Shown: piece by piece, positions 5,287 to 38,898 of the stretch
Layout of the letters: every line of letters starts with the position of its first letter
Position numbering within the stretch: the first letter of the stretch is position 1
Assembly: GCF_009695875.1 (NCBI RefSeq)
Contig: NZ_VUNC01000002.1
Span: 1-64,000, forward strand
DNA: 64,000 nt
Direction of reading: 5' to 3'
Origin: Olsenella porci
GTDB lineage: Bacteria; Actinomycetota; Coriobacteriia; Coriobacteriales; Atopobiaceae
Translations under genes and position numbers: made by a program
The notes under the pieces: generated by a model
The model's input: the letters and a program-made list of their open reading frames with translations, nothing else
The model's database searches: none
What the model was told of the DNA's origin: nothing

Positions 5287-7644
5287 CTAGCCCACGTCGA
5301 GGATTTCTACGCTATAACACCAAGGACTCTTGCCTATCGGGTTGGCCTCGGAAGGCCATCCGCCCTTCTTGTTGTCGAAAGCGGCAGTCACATGCTGGCC
5401 GTCGTACGAGCCCATTTCGCTCGGCATAGATATAACGTAGGTCTTCAACCCGTCGGTGGTCATTTCCCCTAGGGCTTCATACCACTCAATCTCCTGTGGC
5501 TCGTCGAGTACGAAGAGCGTATAGGTATCGGAAAGCATTATGCCGTAGCCTGGATAGCTTCTCATATAATCGGCCTCCGAGGGATTTACTACCCCAAGGC
5601 CCACGCATAGGTCGAGCGCCTCGTCACCTGTCATCTTCCGCACGGTGCCCGTGAGCACGACGAGTCCTTTTGCCTTTGCATTGGATATTACCCATGTGCA
5701 CTTGGGCACCTTCTTACCGTCTTCTAGATGCCAGGAGCCCTTGAGGGGAGAGTTGGACTCGTCAACTAGGTTCAGGCTTACGGGGACCTCATCACCCGTA
5801 AGCTGCTTGTGGAGCTCAAAGGCGGACTTCTCCAAGCCCTCGCATTGCGCGGTGTTGAGGTCGAGGTAGAACCACGCATTTAGATCGATGCACTGTAGGA
5901 CTGGGTCGAAATGCTGCGTGAGCTTGGCTTTACCAGCAGCGCCGCCTTCCAGGTCTATGTCTGCGACAGTAAGGTCCTTCCAGCCAAGAGCTAGGGAGGG
6001 CATGATGCCGATCTTGGCATTTGCGTTTGCAGTAATGGTCGGGTTGCCGAGGTCATCCCTCCTCGTTGCTGAGAACCTCCAGTTTTCTAGGGCAACGCTT
6101 ACCGTCTCCTCAGGGGAAGCAGTAAGCTCAACGCTGCCATCGGCATGGAACGTGGCAAAGAGCTGAAATACCAGGGGGACCTTAGGATCTGGACTGTAGA
6201 ATACGCCCAACCTATAGATCAGATGCTCACCATCAGCGTCTGTGGAGTTGGAAATGTTTGCATTGACGTCTGTGCCAATGTCGAAGTCGGTCTGAAGCTT
6301 CGTAAAGCCCTTCAAATAGTTATAGTCAATGTCTACGTTGATCTTTGGGTTGACCGTAATCGAGGCGTCAACTGACAGGTTGCTCGATTCGCCATCCTTC
6401 AGGCCAAGGTACTTTCTTACATCCTCTGTGGTGATCTTCCTGGTTAGCCCATCTCGTGCGACTTCTCCAGTGAATGTCATGCCTGTAGCGTTCGACTTGA
6501 TGCCCCCCTTCGTTCGGTAGAGGTCATTATTGGCGGCGAAATCGACCTCTGCATCTCCCTGCGACGGCCTACGTGTAGGACGAGATGCACCCGCCGCCTC
6601 AAGCTCGCTCTCGGGGACGAACATCCAATCGCCTGATTGCTGGGGGTCACTCTTCATTGAGAGTTGCTTTACGTAGTCGACGGGATTTGCCTTTTCGCCG
6701 CTCACCACGGTTGAGCCACCGCTTTGAGCGACCTTATCAACCTTGATTGCGGTCATCGCGTAGGGGTCGGTTGGGTTCACGACGACGATGTCGTCCTTTT
6801 CGAGCTGCCTTGCCTGGTCGGTGGGGATCGTCGCGCTCTTCCCGTCTGCTGAGACGGTCCCGGTGACTGACTTCGTGTTATCCATGTACGAGAGCTGGGT
6901 GCCGTAGTCGCCCGACGTGGAGTCGACGTCATCCGGCGCCCACACGGCCTCGTATGTGGCGTCCCCCTGGCAGGCCATTCCATCCGAGACGCCGTCTCCC
7001 CATCCTCGGAACTCGTACCGGTCGCGAGTGGGGTTATCGGGCAGCTGAACTGCCTGGCCAATCTTGAGCTTCTGCTCGGAAACCACCTTCGTGCCCTGGT
7101 CGGTCTCCGTTACGAACTTGACGGTATAGGTTCCACCGCCAACCCCATACCAGCCAATGCCCTCGGCACGCCAACCAACCTTGACCAGATAGTCGTTCTC
7201 TCCCTTGCTCGTGGTGTAGTTGTGGGTACCGGTGACTGCATTGGGGTTGTACTGGCGGTAGAGCGGCACGAGTTTGGTGTCCGAGCTGTACCAGCCCACG
7301 CCCTCGTAGCGCCAGCCCACTTTCACGAGATGATCCCTCTCGGCGAGGCTCGTAGTGTAGTGGTGGTCGCCTGCGTTGGGGTTGTAAAGGCGATAGACGG
7401 GCGTGGACGACTTCCCTGGGGCCGTCCATCCCACGCCCTCGTAACGCCAACCTACCGAGACTATGTGGTCCCTCTCCTGTTCGCTGGCGGTGTAGAAGTG
7501 CTCTCCGCTGTTGGGGTTGTAGCAACGGTACATGGGTTGTGTCTTGCCGGCGTCATTTGCCAACGCAGTTGGTGGCGCAATGGCGCCCGTGACTAGCCCG
7601 AGAGCGAGGGCAACCATCGCAAGCATGGTGAAACGCTTCCTCAT
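5287..7644 (-). CDS. Secreted protein with three YNPN (DUF5648-like) repeats and an InlB-type repeat
   Basis: This is a 785-residue exported protein of unknown function. The start at 7644 (MRKRFTMLAMVALALGL) is chosen because GGGAG lies 6 nt upstream. A signal peptide runs to about residue 30 (TALANDA). Three tandem repeats of about 45 residues follow, each with YRxYNPNxxxHxYT and ending VGWRYEGVGW; this repeat is found in surface proteins and is often linked to sugar or wall binding. An InlB-type repeat (YTVKFVTETDQG to YEAVW) covers about 170-235. The remaining 540 residues, rich in beta-strand-like sequence with several Asn/Asp repeats (DIDYNYLKGF, DIGTDVNANISN), I do not recognise. No LPXTG motif or C-terminal membrane anchor is seen, so it may be released or held non-covalently. 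Part of its C-terminal region is duplicated in the next pseudogene. Confidence 0.8.
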   Translation of the reverse strand: MRKRFTMLAMVALALGLVTGAIAPPTALANDAGKTQPMYRCYNPNSGEHFYTASEQERDHIVSVGWRYEGVGWTAPGKSSTPVYRLYNPNAGDHHYTTSLAERDHLVKVGWRYEGVGWYSSDTKLVPLYRQYNPNAVTGTHNYTTSKGENDYLVKVGWRAEGIGWYGVGGGTYTVKFVTETDQGTKVVSEQKLKIGQAVQLPDNPTRDRYEFRGWGDGVSDGMACQGDATYEAVWAPDDVDSTSGDYGTQLSYMDNTKSVTGTVSADGKSATIPTDQARQLEKDDIVVVNPTDPYAMTAIKVDKVAQSGGSTVVSGEKANPVDYVKQLSMKSDPQQSGDWMFVPESELEAAGASRPTRRPSQGDAEVDFAANNDLYRTKGGIKSNATGMTFTGEVARDGLTRKITTEDVRKYLGLKDGESSNLSVDASITVNPKINVDIDYNYLKGFTKLQTDFDIGTDVNANISNSTDADGEHLIYRLGVFYSPDPKVPLVFQLFATFHADGSVELTASPEETVSVALENWRFSATRRDDLGNPTITANANAKIGIMPSLALGWKDLTVADIDLEGGAAGKAKLTQHFDPVLQCIDLNAWFYLDLNTAQCEGLEKSAFELHKQLTGDEVPVSLNLVDESNSPLKGSWHLEDGKKVPKCTWVISNAKAKGLVVLTGTVRKMTGDEALDLCVGLGVVNPSEADYMRSYPGYGIMLSDTYTLFVLDEPQEIEWYEALGEMTTDGLKTYVISMPSEMGSYDGQHVTAAFDNKKGGWPSEANPIGKSPWCYSVEILDVG

Positions 7645-8341: not shown

Positions 8342-8728
8342 ATGAACCAGAGTATGAAGAGGATTAAAATCGCCTGCATCGCCGACCTCATCGTCGGCGT
8401 CGTCACCGTGGTCCTCGGCGTGATCGCCATCGTCTCCAACCCCCTGTCCGTCTCGCACTACATGCTGACCCTGGTGGGTGTCACCGGGGCGTACCTGGGA
8501 CTGAGGGGGTCGATCTGGGCCAACGTCCCGTCCAACGCAAAGCGCATCCGCGACACCAGCTCGGTGATGGTGCTGGTCGAGTTCGTCGCCTCGATCTTCG
8601 TGGTCATGCCACCCGTGCGCGCCGACCGCAACACGGTCTACATGATCCTGGTCCTGCTGGTGCTGGCCCTGGCTCTTGTGTCGTTTGCCAACGCCCGCCA
8701 GGTGGTCGCCGCGCAGAAGGCCAAGTAG
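8342..8728 (+). CDS. Small four-helix membrane protein, function unknown
   Basis: This 128-residue protein has four predicted membrane helices at about 8-30 (IACIADLIVGVVTVVLGVIA), 39-55, 70-88 (SVMVLVEFVASIFVVM) and 99-118, with short loops and a basic tail (QVVAAQKAK). The ATG at 8342 follows GAGGTG at 8334-8339, although the spacing is tight. It stands alone between the pseudogene and the tRNA gene. The architecture (four helices, no soluble domain) is common among uncharacterised actinobacterial proteins; no function can be assigned. Confidence 0.65.
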   Translation: MNQSMKRIKIACIADLIVGVVTVVLGVIAIVSNPLSVSHYMLTLVGVTGAYLGLRGSIWANVPSNAKRIRDTSSVMVLVEFVASIFVVMPPVRADRNTVYMILVLLVLALALVSFANARQVVAAQKAK

Positions 8729-8804
8729 GTGCTTGCTTGTAGTTGGAGTTTGCCCAGTTGGAGAGGCGCATCCAAACTTTTTTCCAAATTAGTCAAATTC
8801 CCGC

Positions 8805-8995: not shown

Positions 8996-9376
8996 ATGGC
9001 ACAAGAGGAAGATCCGGTCCAGCTGTTCAACATGCACATCTCCCACATCGGGATCAACGCCACGAGCGACGAGGAGGCGGAGCAGATCGTCTCCAAGTTC
9101 CAGACGCTGATGGGGCTGCAGCGCAACGTGGTGGCGCCCGTCTCCGTGTTTGCCGGAACGCTGGTGGAGGTGATGCGTCCCGGCAGCAACAGGGGAGAGA
9201 AGGGCCACATCGGCCTCTACGTCAACGACATCCCGGCGGCAGAGCGCTGGTTCGAGGCCCGCGGGTTCCAGATCGACCAGAACGCCCGCGCGCTCAACCC
9301 CGACGGGTCCACGCACCTGGTGTACTTCAAGGATCAGATTGCGGGGTTCGCGATCCATCTGACCTGCGACGAGTAG
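8996..9376 (+). CDS. VOC (glyoxalase-like) superfamily protein
   Basis: This 126-residue protein has the paired beta-alpha-beta-beta-beta pattern of the vicinal-oxygen-chelate fold. The first module opens with MHISHIGINATSDEEAEQIV and the second with GHIGLYVNDIPAAERWFEAR. The end reads HLVYFKDQIAGFAIHLTCDE. Histidines in HISHIG, GHIG and AIHL sit where metal ligands are expected in the family, but the substrate cannot be read from sequence. Coriobacterial relatives are often named as sugar-acid aldolase-linked proteins, which I cannot support here. The ATG follows GAGAGGGG. It is monocistronic, between the tRNA terminator and a long gene-free spacer. Confidence 0.75.
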   Translation: MAQEEDPVQLFNMHISHIGINATSDEEAEQIVSKFQTLMGLQRNVVAPVSVFAGTLVEVMRPGSNRGEKGHIGLYVNDIPAAERWFEARGFQIDQNARALNPDGSTHLVYFKDQIAGFAIHLTCDE

Positions 9377-9461
9377 GGGTCGTGGACGGAGCGCGGACTC
9401 ACGCGAAAGGTGCGCTGGGTCTCTCGCGCGCTTCGAGGAGTACGGCTTTGGGCTAAGAGGG

Positions 9462-9481
9462 GCGCACCCGGCCGGGTGCGC
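9462..9481. repeat. Perfect 20-bp palindrome
   Basis: GCGCACCCGG is followed directly by its reverse complement CCGGGTGCGC with no loop. It lies 86 bp beyond the VOC gene stop and has no T-run, so it may be an operator or a weak terminator. Confidence 0.6.
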
Positions 9482-9700
9482 GGGCTGCGCCTGCGTCTGT
9501 GGCGTGTGTCTCGCTTGGCATATGTGTGGTGGGGGCTCCACGGTATGGGTGAGGCCCTTCTTGGGCGTCTTGATTGACCTGGGAAAGACCGGCTAAGAGT
9601 GGGGCGATGGGTTGGGGGCTGGAGCTTTCGCGGCGAGTGGAGTCACCGAGCCTGCTGGTGGGGTGGCTAGAATGCACCTGCCTTGCGTGTCCATAGGGGG

Positions 9701-9852
9701 TGCTTAGCGATACTACGCCTCTTGTGATTTGAGGGTTTGGCTGCTTAGGAAGCCTAGGTCTCATGGGAGTTTTGGGCCTTTGAGTCCCAAGAGGTCTAGG
9801 TTTGTTAAGCAGCTGATCGTCGAAAATGCATGAGGGCTAATGGTGCTAAGCG
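9701..9852. repeat. Inverted repeat array, cluster 1 (2 forward + 2 reverse copies)
   Basis: There are four copies of TGCTTA-N6-CTAG-N-CCTC-W-TG: forward at 9701 and 9742, and reverse ending at 9811 and 9852. The same-side pitch is 41 bp on both sides, and the inner opposed pair spans 70 bp (9742-9811). The reverse copy ending at 9852 starts CGCTTA. Spacer sequences between copies are not conserved. Confidence 0.8.
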
Positions 9853-10003: not shown

Positions 10004-11989
10004 TTGATTGCTCTTGCGGACAAGATCAGCAAGTCCTTTGGCGGCCGTGTCCTGTACGCGGCCGCAACTCTGCAGCTGAACGCCGGCGAGCGCTGGGGCC
10101 TTGTGGGGCCCAACGGCGCCGGCAAGACGACCCTGCTCAAGATCATCATGGGGCAGGAGTCTCCCGACGAGGGAACCGTGAGCTTTGCCAAGGACACGAC
10201 CGTCGGGTACCTGGAGCAGGAGACCAAGCTCGTGGGCGGCAAGTCCGCGCTGCAGGAGGTCGTTGACTCCGCGCACGAGATCAAGGACCTCGAGGCACGC
10301 ATAGAGGAGATGGAGCAGCGCATAAGCTCGTCTCAGCCAGGACCCGAGCAGGACGCCCTCCTCGCCAGCTACGGCAGCGCGCAGGACCGCTTTGAGCGCC
10401 TGGGTGGCTACGAGCTGGAGGCCCGCGCTCGGCAGATCCTCTCGGGCCTGGGCTTTCCCGTGGAGGACTTTGACAAGCCGGCGGAGGAGTTCTCGGGCGG
10501 CTGGCAGATGCGCATTTCGCTCTCCAAGCTCCTTCTGCGGCACCCCGACCTGCTTCTCCTGGACGAGCCGACCAACCACCTGGACCTGGAGAGCGTGAAG
10601 TGGCTGGAGCAGTTCCTCTCGTCCTACGACGGGGCGGTGCTGCTGGTCTCGCACGACCGCTCGTTCATGGACTCCTGCGTGAGCCACATCGCCGCGCTGG
10701 AGAACAAGCGCCTGGTCACCTACGTGGGCAACTACTCCAGCTACCTGCAACAGCGTGAGGACAACCTGGAGCAGCTCCGTGCCAAGCGCGAGGCCCAGGA
10801 GCGCGACATCCAGCACCTGGAGGTCTTTATCGAGCGCTTTAGGTACAAGCCGACCAAGGCGCGCCAGGTGCAGGAGCGCATCAAGATGCTCGAGAAGGTC
10901 AAGTCAGAGCTCGTGGTGCTTCCCGAGTCGTCCAAGAAGGTGCACTTCAAGTTTCCCGAGCCGCCCCGCACGGGCGACATGGTCGTGAGCGTGGACGACG
11001 TGTCCAAGCACTACGAGGACAACGACGTGTACGACCACGTGAGCCTCAAGCTCTACCGCGGCGACCACGCCGTGCTCGTGGGCCCCAACGGCGCAGGCAA
11101 GTCAACGCTGATGAAGCTGGTCAACGGGCACGAGCGGCCCACGAGCGGGCGCATCGAGCTGGGCCAGAACGTGACGCAGGCCTACTATGCGCAGCACCAG
11201 CTCGAGACCCTGCACGAGGGCAACACCGTTCTGCAGGAGATGGACGCGGCGGCCCCCGGCTGGACCACCTCCGAGGAGCGCAGGCTCCTGGGCGCCTTCC
11301 TATTCCACGGGGACGACGTGGACAAGCGGGTGGGCGTGCTCTCCGGCGGCGAGAAGGCACGACTGGCCTTGGCCCGCATGCTCGTGGCGCCCGACCCGCT
11401 GCTGTGCCTGGACGAGCCCACCAACCACCTGGACATCGACTCGGTCGACGTGCTTGAGCAGGCCCTGGTGACGTTCCCCGGCACGATCATCCTGATCTCG
11501 CACGACGAGCACCTGGTGAGGGCGGTTGCCAACAAGGTCATCGACGTGCGTGACCACAAGGTCACCGTGTACGATGGCGACTACGACTACTACCTGTACA
11601 AGCGCGCCGAGCTTGAGGCACGGGAGCAGGGCGGCGACGCCGCTGGTGCCCCCAAGCCCAGCGCACCGCAGGAGGACGACTCCCGCTCTCAGGGCCGCAA
11701 CGTTAAGACCAAGGAGCAGCGTCGTGCCGAGGCCCAGGCGCGCAACGCCGCCAACCGGGCCCTGAAGGAGGAGCGCAAGAGGCTCCGGCAGGTTGAGGCG
11801 GCCCTGAAGCCCGCGCAGAAGCGTTACGACGAGCTGGTGGCGATGATGGCGGACGAGGAGCTGTACAACGACGCCGACAAGTTTGACAAGTGCATGAGGG
11901 AGTACAACGCCCTGGCGAAGAAGATCCCCTCGCTGGAGGAGGAGTGGCTCGAGCTCAGCACCCGGATCGAGGAGGGTGCCGATGCCTAG
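10004..11989 (+). CDS. ABC-F family ATPase (translation factor type)
   Basis: ABC-F proteins bind the ribosomal E site and act on stalled or antibiotic-bound ribosomes; they are not transporters. This one has 661 residues. ATPase domain 1 has Walker [10 protein letters not shown] at 35-43, signature [12 protein letters not shown] and Walker [13 protein letters not shown]. An inter-domain linker with basic helices ([20 protein letters not shown]) follows. Domain 2 has [22 protein letters not shown] and [12 protein letters not shown] long charged coiled coil closes the protein (about 560-660). No membrane helices are present. The start is TTG at 10004 after GAAGGGG. It heads the operon that runs to 20296 and overlaps the next gene by 8 nt. 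Confidence 0.9.
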
Positions 11990-18041: not shown

Positions 18042-18884
18042 ATGAGAGTCGAGGTCGCAAGCCAGGCGGGAGCCTGCTACGGCGTGGAGCGCGCACTGCG
18101 GTTGGTCAGGGACTCCGTCCAGACGGAACGGGGCCAGGTGCACACGCTTGGGCCGCTCATCCACAACCCCCAGGTGGTCGCGGAGCTGGCACAGGCGGGC
18201 GTCTCCCCCGTGTCGTCGCCCGAGGACGTCGATGGCGGCACCCTGGTGCTGCGGACGCACGGCGTGACCCCGCAGGAGGAGCGCAGCGCCAACGAGCACG
18301 CCGACCGCGTGATCAACGCCACCTGCCCGTTCGTGCTGCGCGCCCACCAAAGTGCCCGCGCCCTGTACGACCAGGGCTACCAGGTGATCATCGTGGGCGA
18401 GAAGGGCCACCCCGAGGTCCTGGGGACCCTGGGCAACGCCCCCGGCGCCGTGGTGGTCCAGAACGTCTCCGAGCTCGAGGGCATCAAGGTCGGCAAGCGC
18501 GTGGGCATCGTGGTCCAGACCACGCAGGCCAGGGACAACCTAAGGGCGATCGTTTCCGCCCTCATCGGCAGGTGCGAGGAGCTCAGGCTGCACGACACCA
18601 TCTGCGAGGCCACCTCCAGCAGGCAGGCCGCGGCGGCGGAGCTCTCGGCGCGCGCGGACGTGATGGTCGTGATCGGGGGCAGGAACTCCGCCAACACCAC
18701 GCGCCTGGCCAAGATCTGCTCCGCCCGCTGCCCGCGCACTCACCACATCGAGTCTGCCTCCGAGCTCCAGGCGGGGTGGTTCGACGGAGCAGACCTGGTG
18801 GGCATCACTGCCGGGGCTTCCACGCCGCAGGAGCAGATCGACACGGTCTGCTCCGCCGTCGAGGGAATGGGCGGCACGCGATGA
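18042..18884 (+). CDS. ispH: 4-hydroxy-3-methylbut-2-enyl diphosphate reductase
   Basis: IspH performs the last step of the MEP isoprenoid pathway, making IPP and DMAPP with a [4Fe-4S] cluster. The three cluster cysteines are present: Cys12 (GACYGV), Cys95 (NATCPF) and Cys188 (DTICEAT). Substrate histidines His41 (LIHNPQ), His73 (RTHG) and His123 (KGHPEV) are visible, as is GGRNSANTTRLA. At 280 residues it is a normal single-domain IspH without the S1 fusion seen in some anaerobes. An AGGAGG ribosome site precedes the ATG. The stop overlaps the next start (ATGA). Confidence 0.95.
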   Translation: MRVEVASQAGACYGVERALRLVRDSVQTERGQVHTLGPLIHNPQVVAELAQAGVSPVSSPEDVDGGTLVLRTHGVTPQEERSANEHADRVINATCPFVLRAHQSARALYDQGYQVIIVGEKGHPEVLGTLGNAPGAVVVQNVSELEGIKVGKRVGIVVQTTQARDNLRAIVSALIGRCEELRLHDTICEATSSRQAAAAELSARADVMVVIGGRNSANTTRLAKICSARCPRTHHIESASELQAGWFDGADLVGITAGASTPQEQIDTVCSAVEGMGGTR

Positions 18885-20296
18885 GGGCCAGCCAGCAGGG
18901 CAGGGCCGACTACGCCTCCACGCGCCCCCAGGCCACGGGTGCCGTGGTGGCGAGCGTCGAGGAGGGAAGCCCCGCTTGGGAGGCGGGCATCGAGCCCGGC
19001 ATGCGGGTGGAGACCGTCAACGGCAAGCCGCTCCGCGACATCATCGACTGGCGGTGGGAGGCCTCCGACGCCACCTGCCAGCTGAGCGTGTTCACGCCTG
19101 ACGACGGGCTCACCTATCCCTGCACGCTGGAACGCGAGGCAGGGCAGGACTGGGGCATCGAGTTCGAGGACGTGCTGTTCGACGGCATCCGCACCTGCGT
19201 CAACGCTTGCCAGTTCTGCTTCATGCGCATGCTGCCCGACGACGCCCGCGCCTCCCTCAGCCTGCGCGACGACGACTACCGGCTCTCGTTTCTCCAGGGC
19301 AACTTCGTCACGCTCACCAACGTGACGGACGACGACCTTGCCCGCATCATCGAGTGCCGGCTGGAGCCCATGAACGTCTCGCTCCACGCCGTGTCGCCCG
19401 ATGTCAGGAGGTCGCTCATCGGCCCGCACGCCCAGCGGGGCCTGGACGTTCTGCAGGCGCTCTGCGACGCCGGGCTTGAGGTCCATGGGCAGATCGTGCT
19501 CTGCGCCGGGATCAACGACGGCGAGGAGCTCCGCCGCACGCTCGACTGGGTGGAGGAGAGGGACAACATCACCTCGCTGGCGCTCGTCCCCATGGGCTAC
19601 ACCAAGTACTCGCGGAACTTCTCCCACTCGTTCTCCGAGGACGTGGAGGCGTCCCGCGAGGTCGTCCGGCTCATCGAGCCCTATCAGCGCCGTGCCAGGG
19701 AGCGGCTGGGCCGCACACGGTTCCAGCTCTCGGACGAGTTCTACCTCGACGCCCAGCTGCCCGTTCCGGAGTCCGAGACCTACGACGGCTACCCGCAGTT
19801 CTACGACGGCATTGGCATGCTCAGGAGCTTCCTGGACGAGGCCCGCGACATCTGCCAGGACCACGCGGACGAGCTCGACGGCATCGTGGACGCGCTTCGC
19901 TCGCGTGGGCTCCGCGCGCTCGCGGTGTGCGGCGAGGCGGCAGAGGGCGTTATCCGCGGCTTCTGCGCCGCGTGGGCTCGGGGGCTGGTCTCCGCCCTCG
20001 CCATCCACAACGACTACTACGGCGGCGACGTCAACGTGACGGGCCTCATCGTGTCCGTGGACCTGCTGGCCCAGCTCCCAAAGGACCTCTCGGGGACGGT
20101 CGTGCTGCTCCCCGAGGTCATGTTCAACTTTGACAAGGTCACGCTCGACGGTGGCTCGCAGGCGCAGATCCTCGACGAGATAGACCGTCGCGGCGGCAGG
20201 GCGGTCGTGTGCCAGACGACCCCCTCCGCCATGGTCGACGCCCTCCGCTGCCAGCTGGACCCGAAAAGAGACCAGGCTCACGATGGACGTTCATGA
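18881..20296 (+). CDS. DUF512 family iron-sulfur protein with PDZ-like N-terminus
   Basis: This 471-residue protein matches the DUF512 (radical-SAM-like) family, which in many anaerobes and cyanobacteria lies beside der. Residues about 15-75 form a PDZ-like module (VASVEEGSPAWEAGIEPGMR). A cysteine cluster follows, TCVNACQFCFMRMLPDDARA, of CxxxCxxC form, which should bind [4Fe-4S]. Then come SLHAVSPDVRRSLIG, LAGIN-like QIVLCAGINDGEEL and a C-terminal part with LLPEVMFNFDKVTLDG. The biochemical reaction of the family is not established to my knowledge. The ATG at 18881 overlaps the ispH stop. It ends the operon; a truncated DUF1287 fragment overlaps its last codons. Confidence 0.88.
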   Translation: MRASQQGRADYASTRPQATGAVVASVEEGSPAWEAGIEPGMRVETVNGKPLRDIIDWRWEASDATCQLSVFTPDDGLTYPCTLEREAGQDWGIEFEDVLFDGIRTCVNACQFCFMRMLPDDARASLSLRDDDYRLSFLQGNFVTLTNVTDDDLARIIECRLEPMNVSLHAVSPDVRRSLIGPHAQRGLDVLQALCDAGLEVHGQIVLCAGINDGEELRRTLDWVEERDNITSLALVPMGYTKYSRNFSHSFSEDVEASREVVRLIEPYQRRARERLGRTRFQLSDEFYLDAQLPVPESETYDGYPQFYDGIGMLRSFLDEARDICQDHADELDGIVDALRSRGLRALAVCGEAAEGVIRGFCAAWARGLVSALAIHNDYYGGDVNVTGLIVSVDLLAQLPKDLSGTVVLLPEVMFNFDKVTLDGGSQAQILDEIDRRGGRAVVCQTTPSAMVDALRCQLDPKRDQAHDGRS

Positions 20297-20483
20297 CATC
20301 GGCAGTTGGCGGGGCGGGGACATCGTAGTCTTCAGCAATCACGCCGATGTCGTCTCGGACGGGAGGAACGGTGATGGCGTGCCGTATGTGATCCACCACA
20401 ACGACCCGTTTCAGACGTCCTACGAGCAGGACATCCTCCAGAGCCGGGACGGCATCGTAGGGCATTGCCGGATGTCCGAGTGA
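20283..20483 (+). pseudogene. C-terminal fragment of a DUF1287 protein
   Basis: These 66 codons read SWRGGDIVVFSNHADVVSDG then NGDGVPYVIHHNDPFQ and YEQDILQSRDGIVGHCRMSE. They match the C-terminal third of DUF1287 proteins (GDIV, HIGIVSDRRN, PLVIHN, GHYR pattern), which are normally near 200 residues and exported. The N-terminal two thirds and signal sequence are missing. The ATG at 20283 lies inside the last codons of the DUF512 gene, so the break point is at the operon end. It is most likely non-functional debris, although it could still be translated by reinitiation. Confidence 0.65.
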
Positions 20484-20679: not shown

Positions 20680-20913
20680 TGCTTAATCCCACTAGGCCTC
20701 CTGCCAAATTCATGACATGATGCATAATCCCGCTAGCACACTTATCGATTCGGAACTAAATGCTTAATCGCCCTAGCCCTCATGTGGGTTGGAGGAGAGA
20801 GAACCAGCATGAGGCCTAGCATCGCTAAGCACCTCGGTTCCAAACCCACAAGAGGAGTAGCGCCTCTAAGCATCCCGGCTCCAGATCCACAAGAGACCGG
20901 GACATGTTAAGCA
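20680..20913. repeat. Inverted repeat array, cluster 2 (3 forward + 3 reverse copies)
   Basis: There are six copies of TGCTTA-N6-CTAG-N-CCTC-W-TG. Forward copies start at 20680, 20721 and 20761; reverse copies end at 20831, 20872 and 20913. The pitch is 41, 40, 41 and 41 bp, and the inner opposed pair spans 71 bp. The copy at 20721 is the most diverged (TGCATA). Copies at 20761, 20872 and 20913 extend into TGTGG. The 13-17 bp spacers between copies do not resemble each other. Confidence 0.85.
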
Positions 20914-21266: not shown

Positions 21267-22595
21267 ATGCCCAAGCCAATCGTGGCGGTCGTAGGCCGCC
21301 CCAACGTAGGAAAGTCCACCCTGGTCAACCGCATCGCCGTGAGCAGGGACGCCATCGTCCACGAGTCGCGCGGAGTCACCAGGGACCGCTCGTACCACGA
21401 GGCCGACTGGAATGGCCGCGACTTCGTGCTGATCGACACCGGCGGCATCGAGTCAGTTAAGAGCAAGGACGTCTTTGCCCCCAGGATCCGCGAGCAGGCG
21501 CTCGCCGCCTGCGAGGAGGCGGACGTCATCGTATTCGTCGTGGACGGCTCGGTGGGCGTCACGGACGAGGACGAGGAGGTCGCCCGCGTTGTCCGGCGCT
21601 CCAACAAGCCCGTGATCCTGGTGGTCAACAAGGTCGACAACCCGTCCAGCGAGGACGAGGCCTGGCCGTTCTACTCCCTTGGCGTGGGAGAGCCGCATGC
21701 CATCTCGGCAAACCACGGTTACGGCACGGGGGACCTGCTCGACGAGGTCGTGGCCAATTTCCCGCCCGAAGACGAGGAGTCCGAGGAGGACGACGGCTAC
21801 CTGGGTGTGGCCATCATCGGGCGTCCCAACGTGGGCAAGTCCTCCCTCGCCAACCGACTCGCCAAGCGCAACCGCTCGATCGTCTCGGACGTTGCCGGCA
21901 CCACTCGCGACGCCGTGGACACCCTGATCGAGTGGAAGGGCAACCGCATCAGGCTCGTTGACACCGCGGGCATGCGCAAGAAGTCACAGGTTCACGAGGA
22001 CGTGGAGTACTACAGCCTGGTGCGCGGGCTCCAGGCCATGGACCGCGCGGAGGTGTGCATCCTCGTGGTGGACGCCTCGGTGGGCGTGACCGAGCAAGAC
22101 CAGAAGCTGCTGGGCATGGCCGTGGACCGCGGCTGCGCTGTGGTGATGGCCCTCAACAAGTGGGACCTTATTGACACCCAGGAGAAGCGCGACCGCGTGA
22201 TGGAGTCGCTCGACATGCGGATGGGCTACGCGCCCTGGGTGCCCTACGTCAACATCTCGGCCCTGACGGGGCGCGCCGTCGACAAGATCCTCGCCGCAAC
22301 GCTCGCCGCGGCGGAGGCGCATCAGCGCGAGGTCAAGACCTCCGACATCAACAAGCTGCTTGCCCAGCTAAGGGAGGGCGGCCACACCGTCACCGACAAG
22401 AACCGCCGTCTCAAGATCCACTACGGCACCCAGACGGGAACCAAGCCGCCCTCGTTCACCTTCTGGTGCAATGCGCCCGACCTCATCGACGACAACTACG
22501 AGCGGTTCCTCGAGAACCGTATGCGCTCCACCTTCGACTTTGGCGGGACCCCCATTCGCCTCAAGTTCAAGCGGAAGGACGACACCAGAAAATGA
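21267..22595 (+). CDS. der: Ribosome biogenesis GTPase Der (EngA)
   Basis: Der is the double GTPase required for 50S subunit assembly. The first G-domain has GRPNVGKST at 10-18, DTGG and NKVD. The second has GRPNVGKSS near 188, DTAGMRKKSQVHEDVEYYS and NKWDLID. A C-terminal KH-like domain (INKLLAQLREGGHTVTDKNR, then LKIHYGTQTGTKPPSFTFWC) binds rRNA. Its 442 residues are typical. AAGGAG precedes the ATG. Its stop overlaps the plsY start (ATGA), giving a der-plsY-gpsA coupling that is common in Gram-positive bacteria. Confidence 0.96.
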   Translation: MPKPIVAVVGRPNVGKSTLVNRIAVSRDAIVHESRGVTRDRSYHEADWNGRDFVLIDTGGIESVKSKDVFAPRIREQALAACEEADVIVFVVDGSVGVTDEDEEVARVVRRSNKPVILVVNKVDNPSSEDEAWPFYSLGVGEPHAISANHGYGTGDLLDEVVANFPPEDEESEEDDGYLGVAIIGRPNVGKSSLANRLAKRNRSIVSDVAGTTRDAVDTLIEWKGNRIRLVDTAGMRKKSQVHEDVEYYSLVRGLQAMDRAEVCILVVDASVGVTEQDQKLLGMAVDRGCAVVMALNKWDLIDTQEKRDRVMESLDMRMGYAPWVPYVNISALTGRAVDKILAATLAAAEAHQREVKTSDINKLLAQLREGGHTVTDKNRRLKIHYGTQTGTKPPSFTFWCNAPDLIDDNYERFLENRMRSTFDFGGTPIRLKFKRKDDTRK

Positions 22596-38788: not shown

Positions 38789-38898
38789 TGCTTAACGTTT
38801 CCCAGCCTCTTGTGGGTTTCCGCCATCCAGCTAACAAGGGGGTCAGAGGGGCTAAGCGATCGGGGGTAATTCTGCACGAGGGCTAGCGCTGTTAAGCA
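38789..38898. repeat. Inverted repeat array, cluster 3 (1 forward + 2 reverse copies)
   Basis: A forward copy starts at 38789 (TGCTTA-ACGTTT-CCCA-G-CCTC-TTG then TGGG), and reverse copies end at 38858 and 38898 (pitch 40 bp). The inner opposed pair spans 70 bp. The position one pitch upstream (38748) ends in CATGGGG but has lost the TGCTTA start, so a fourth copy may have decayed. Confidence 0.78.

Follow-up and report, generated by a model that had tools for sequence, protein, structure and literature searches.

An Array of Six Units between the DUF512 Protein Gene and der

Positions 20680–20913 of the window (the whole 64,000-bp stretch of Olsenella porci DNA that was analysed) are filled by six copies of a short motif, and the locus raises the question of what kind of element is formed by two arms of such copies facing each other. 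The unit coordinates given in the earlier note were correct. The left arm consisted of three plus-strand units located at 20680..20703 (outer, 0 mismatches), 20721..20744 (4 mismatches, pitch 41) and 20761..20784 (inner, 0 mismatches, pitch 40), and the right arm of three minus-strand units located at 20808..20831 (inner, 0 mismatches), 20849..20872 (1 mismatch, pitch 41) and 20890..20913 (outer, 3 mismatches, pitch 41). Two of the six, the units starting at 20721 and ending at 20913, were degenerate. The same-side spacings of 41, 40, 41 and 41 bp and the 71-bp span of the inner pair, whose units are separated by a centre of 23 bp (20785..20807), were likewise confirmed on the sequence.

This array, designated array 2, was preceded by a gene coding for a radical-SAM/DUF512 protein (18881..20296, plus strand; PF19238 and PF04459) and followed by a plus-strand gene (21267..22595) with 77–80% identity to family relatives, which we take from its sequence to be der, encoding GTPase Der. 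Between the DUF512 gene and the array, a short plus-strand reading frame (20283..20483) matched positions 102–162 of the 163 of PF06940 (DUF1287). With only the last third of this domain, it is probably a gene remnant.

Two further arrays were present in the window. Array 1 (9701..9852) comprised plus-strand units at 9701 and 9742 and minus-strand units ending at 9811 and 9852, and was located upstream of an ABC-F-type ATPase gene (10004..11989, plus strand; PF00005, PF12848 and PF16326). Array 3 (38789..38898) comprised a plus-strand unit at 38789 (3 mismatches) and minus-strand units ending at 38858 (4 mismatches) and 38898 (0 mismatches). With up to three mismatches allowed, the 24-bp pattern was matched 11 times in the window against 0.22 expected from shuffles, and the window matches fell in these three arrays.

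A Genome-Wide Family of Arrays in Olsenella porci

With up to three mismatches allowed, the unit was matched 146 times in the O. porci genome (G000; 2.36 Mb, 15 contigs), whereas the reversed control gave 9 matches, and the unit matches grouped into about 32 intergenic clusters. The matches were not scattered single copies, nearly all of them being located in inward-facing arrays with a pitch of 40–42 bp. The array at 20680–20913 is real, but its presentation in the earlier note as a local case was too narrow, since it is one of about 32 and its design recurs in other genera.

Parsing resulted in 25 complete two-arm arrays with 132 units. The arms carried one to five units and always faced each other, the same-arm pitch was 41 bp in 74 of the 86 neighbour pairs (40 bp in 5 and 42 bp in 7), and the inner pair spanned 69–71 bp in all 25 arrays. 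A motif-free test, which scored how often 6-mers of intergenic DNA recur at a given lag, also gave a sharp peak at 41 for O. porci.

A weight matrix built from 145 units defined a conserved unit of about 30 bp, TGCTTARYnnYnCTAGSCCTCRTGYGGATTY, which is asymmetric and not palindromic; the remainder of the linker was weakly conserved. The unit is thus longer than the 24 bp initially described, positions 25–31 (YGGATTY) being conserved as well, and to this extent the spacers do resemble one another. Mismatch in the 25 arrays grew from the centre outward (1.0, 0.9, 1.75 and 3.25). In the same arrays, the bases of N6 and of the linker showed no greater likeness within than between arrays, while the boxes were conserved. 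Fresh copying therefore does not explain the conservation of the units, and the lack of excess likeness within arrays indicates that the units are kept singly, the sequence between them drifting and its length not. Such conservation of single units resembles selection. In one O. porci array, the outer right-arm units recur nearly unchanged 530 bp downstream (L047:8189-8230 and 8719-8760), which is a local duplication.

The Same Design with Other Motifs in Related Genomes

Among the relatives searched, the O. porci motif was not found above the reversed control in any other species. The exact pair of O. porci units was absent from the genome contigs (O. porci's own genome left out) and viral contigs, and no match was detected in plasmids, phages or viral contigs. 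The phased-array design itself was present in relatives with other motifs. Such arrays were exposed by the motif-free lag test in relatives from the Atopobiaceae (the family as given by the taxonomy of O. intestinalis), with pitches of 31/32 and 40–43 bp and almost nothing between.

The unit of Olsenella intestinalis (G070) was CAGCGCARAA-N5-TYGAGGGCGYGA (63 matches) and that of Olsenella sp. RGIG8828 (G084) was CGGCGCAAAA-N5-TCGAGTGCGGGA (48 matches), with pitches of 31/32 and 40–43 bp and an inner span of 59–60 bp; G025, a congener of these two, had no arrays. Units of the ACGTCCRACGCGTG type, mostly 30 bp apart, were identified in G024 from genus g25 (71 matches against 6 for the control). 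The genomes G036 and G006 from genus g7, which are about 99% identical and were counted once, carried TGCRWACGACTC units (78–79 matches against 1 for the control) with a pitch of 32, once 22, and three congeners of G036 had at most two matches each to TGCRWACGACTC. The 19 inter-arm gaps of G036 clustered at a period of 10.65 bp (R = 0.95), a value reached by none of 2000 random draws. Together with the pitches found in the relatives, this strengthened the earlier proposal that the spacing of about 41 bp reflects helical phasing.

Arrays of G036 (L204, L222-L239) possess a central asymmetric GCAGGTA site, GCAGGTANATGAGTTGTTG-like, and the arm units stand off this site in steps of about 10.5 bp. 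One of them (L204) has one more 32-bp unit than its counterpart in G006 (L258); arrays change by whole units. In G134 (genus g4), an array of the palindromic unit ACCCAGATCCGGTTCTGGGT with a 41-bp pitch was located beside der (L075:1075-1395), and the same unit array was also found at a few other loci (L213 around 9213-9816). Its likeness to the arrays described here is by eye only, and it was not accepted as a member of the same family. The same genome contains another group of inverted repeats, built of CCAGGTGTATC units, whose two copies are inverted relative to each other and lie about 2 kb apart (L211:3150-3369 and 5467-5600).

Some positions are shared between species. An O. intestinalis array was located between the DUF512 and der genes, the place of the window array at 20680, and a second one upstream of an ABC-F gene, corresponding to the window array at 9701, where only the ABC-F flank was confirmed. 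In G025, the same gene pairs were 88 and 59 bp apart and without arrays. The shared positions may reflect either arrays of ancestral origin whose motif has changed and which were lost repeatedly, or preferred gaps. Homology of the O. porci motif to the motifs of O. intestinalis and RGIG8828 in the same orientation was rejected as not significant (p = 0.14 and 0.77). In the reverse orientation, the comparison with O. intestinalis gave p = 0.003 and that with RGIG8828 p = 0.05, on a CCTC-N6-WTTT core. As several tests had been made, this is no more than a hint, and one that would require the polarity of the arms to have flipped.

A Proposed Phased Platform for a Putative Cooperative Binder

To distinguish a protein-binding array from an RNA stem, the complementarity of paired units was analysed in the 25 arrays. 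For N6, it was 0.48 compared with 0.53 expected from shuffled pairings (p = 0.94), and for all variable positions in same-rank units of the two arms it was not above that of shuffled partners (p = 0.97). The bases that differ between paired units are not compensatory, as had been claimed for the single locus, and the absence of covariation shows that selection does not maintain an RNA stem. The lack of covariation and a pitch that is held while linkers diverge argue for binding by a putative protein, as the earlier note had proposed. As in cooperative arrays, the sites are spaced by whole numbers of helical turns and share one face of the DNA.

The reading held with moderate confidence is that the array at 20680–20913 is a copy of an interspersed extragenic element, a phased and two-fold symmetric platform of double-stranded DNA for a putative cooperative binder. 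Each bipartite unit of about 30 bp would be the site for one sequence-specific protein or dimer. Because the units of one arm are four helical turns apart, all bound proteins would be on one face of the DNA, and because a two-fold axis relates the facing arms, two cooperative rows could join at the centre. At the intergenic places concerned, which seldom lie between divergent promoters, this would produce a compact nucleoprotein knot. The outward rise in mismatches is expected if binding nucleates at the centre. The mixed neighbours, the avoidance of divergent gaps and the two O. intestinalis arrays placed next to the same genes as in the window also count in favour of this reading. From place and design, we infer a role that is more likely to lie in chromosome organisation or topology, as thought for BIME and RIB, than in switching a particular promoter. 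Against such a platform stands the fact that relatives such as the congener G025 do without arrays; the function of the arrays is therefore not essential in the family.

Copying, Insertion Sequences and Transposases

The main rival of the platform is mobility, seen in O. intestinalis and RGIG8828. The arrays could be non-autonomous mobile elements of the foldback or MITE type, with the units serving as transposase or recombinase sites at abutting ends and being moved in trans. In this explanation, which was considered rather unlikely, unit conservation would reflect recognition by the moving enzyme, one not recognised here. In its favour, whole arrays of O. intestinalis and RGIG8828 were near copies, up to 96% identical, and the likeness stopped at the array edges as in mobile repeats, which also speaks against the platform; empty sites in relatives and the resemblance of tandem units in inverted arms to foldback ends point in the same direction.

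The O. porci arrays, however, were far less alike and shared little beyond the sites (the best long pair being 79% identical over 152 bp), so that dispersed near-identical copies with sharp ends were present in G070 and G084 and absent in O. porci. The outer units, which should be the ends of a mobile element, were the most degenerate ones. No target duplication flush with the ends was detected at the 12 arrays having both flanks, all from G070 and G084, the array ends of O. porci being blurred, and membership among MITEs fails on this point in the two genomes.

No autonomous copy or cognate transposase was seen for the two families tested, PF01797 and PF09299. RAYT (PF01797) had no match in the O. 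porci genome, which also counts against mobility, and the matches in G070 and G084 were located away from the arrays, so a link to RAYT was rejected. PF09299 (Mu/Tn7-type transposase) was likewise without a match, but its control was silent too, so that this absence carries little weight. G134 possesses three Y1 (RAYT-like) genes (L142, L144 and L146) unrelated to the arrays, two of them flanked by their own short inverted repeats.

Long inserts within arrays were rejected as autonomous copies, as they are separate insertion sequences; the type names given here are our reading of the insert proteins. A 1.7-kb insert within an O. intestinalis array (L125:9815-11455) is an apparent IS110-type insertion sequence, and the same sequence was found at the edge of another array of this species (L129, from 10730). 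Its entry into the same part of the unit in two arrays suggests a target preference for the unit. At the centre of a G036 array, a 1.3-kb apparent IS1595-type insertion sequence was identified (L222:3503-4800), whereas G006 (L249) has that array without the insert and with arms 92 bp apart. At another locus, an rve_3 transposase frame (Pfam match; L056:175-612) runs into the first unit of the array and takes its stop codon there, and the left arm seems to have been cut by an insertion sequence.

Genomic Setting of the Arrays

The O. porci arrays were intergenic, with about 11 between convergent, 19–20 between co-directional and one between divergent genes. Divergent gaps were avoided (1 of 31 arrays compared with 41 of 220 intergenic regions, p = 0.014), which is moderate evidence and a weaker point of the platform, because gene calls came from a simple model made here and the background was drawn from the same loci.

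A cooperative repressor or activator acting on the arrays as operators of one regulon would be an alternative function, with control over the neighbouring genes. Phased multi-site operators exist, and in co-directional settings the array was located 150–850 bp upstream of a gene. About 11 of 31 arrays, however, were flanked by convergent genes, a setting that offers no promoter, and a single one was flanked by divergent genes. In addition, the Pfam names of 50 flanking proteins were a mixture from housekeeping and transport that shared no theme. A regulon is thus improbable, and assignment to a promoter–operator family was rejected, as the arrays are not at promoters of related genes.

A role at the RNA level, with the inverted arms forming a long transcript hairpin or the bound array blocking RNA polymerase, was judged highly improbable. 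Apart from the inverted arms themselves, it draws on G036, in which a stop codon precedes most arrays by 7–46 bp and some inner units, on visual inspection, look like a hairpin with a T-run. The arms nevertheless do not covary, no Rfam family was matched at the arrays, and intrinsic terminators occurred at array-facing gene ends with a frequency similar to that at other ends (8 of 39 and 15 of 90, respectively). As terminators are not depleted there, the roadblock or terminator role was rejected.

A chromosome-domain mark, i.e., a family of macrodomain or partition sites confined to one region, would account for one motif in tens of copies per chromosome but is scarcely credible, as arrays were present on most of the larger contigs roughly in proportion to length (a weak argument, as the contigs are unordered).

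In line with the earlier statement that no CRISPR gene is nearby, no Cas domain was detected among the neighbours scanned. A CRISPR array, which has units in a single orientation, unique spacers of 20–40 bp and cas genes, was rejected on this result, on the two facing arms and on the conservation of half of the linker.

Comparison with Known Systems

Iteron and centromere arrays of plasmids are phased sites to which one protein binds cooperatively. The arrays resemble them as phased site arrays, the binder here being putative, and differ in having about 32 chromosomal copies, inverted arms and a fixed centre, with no replication or partition gene among the annotated neighbours. The ends of Tn7- and Mu-type transposons carry several bipartite sites of about 22 bp each, pointing inward. 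The arrays likewise possess several inward-pointing bipartite units per arm; unlike such ends, they have no cargo, no target duplication at the arrays of G070 and G084 and, in O. porci, the weakest units outermost, and PF09299 was unmatched, with a silent control.

Foldback transposons (Tetris, PMC4079207; Galileo, PMC3573991) and bacterial MITEs (PMC4596501) share with the arrays inverted arms of tandem units and copies that disperse, as seen in O. intestinalis and RGIG8828. Foldback elements are, however, eukaryotic, and the arrays differ from both groups in their abutting arms, in O. porci units that are kept while linkers drift, in the lack of target duplication at the arrays of G070 and G084 and in the lack of a transposase among the two families tested.

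The arrays are similar to REP, BIME and RIB elements (PMC2817692, PMC3733652) in being interspersed, extragenic, present in tens to hundreds of copies, lineage-specific, provided with inverted partners and entered by insertion sequences. BIMEs bind IHF or gyrase (PMC2817692). The array units, in contrast to those of REP and BIME, are not palindromic units of 20–40 bp and carry no terminal GTAG/CGTC tag; the arms are head-to-tail with a whole-turn pitch and a fixed centre, and the O. porci genome is without RAYT. In location and dispersal the arrays are BIME-like, but they are not BIMEs by definition, as palindromy and RAYT fail. A further hallmark of the RAYT-linked group is binding of gyrase, IHF or Pol I.

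In agreement with the earlier note, no described element with such a design was found in open-licence papers searched with few terms. We regard the arrays as a new element, with the caveat that the binder could belong to a known kind. Tentatively, and with some doubt, the Atopobiaceae may possess a class of chromosomal element not described before, the phased inverted array, read by one fast-evolving DNA-binding system. Its geometry, with a whole-turn pitch, two facing arms and a symmetric centre, would be retained together with some chromosomal positions, whereas the sequence that is read would change throughout the genome from lineage to lineage, in the manner of a protein and its site that co-evolve. 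Among bacterial interspersed repeats, those studied in depth are mostly REPs with palindromic units and a RAYT link, whereas these arrays rest on the helical phase of the DNA double strand. The recurrence of the design under different motifs in several Atopobiaceae genera offers natural replicates for seeking the binder and tracing the change in its specificity, and what would be gained is a novel type of chromosomal platform or, alternatively, of non-autonomous mobile DNA.
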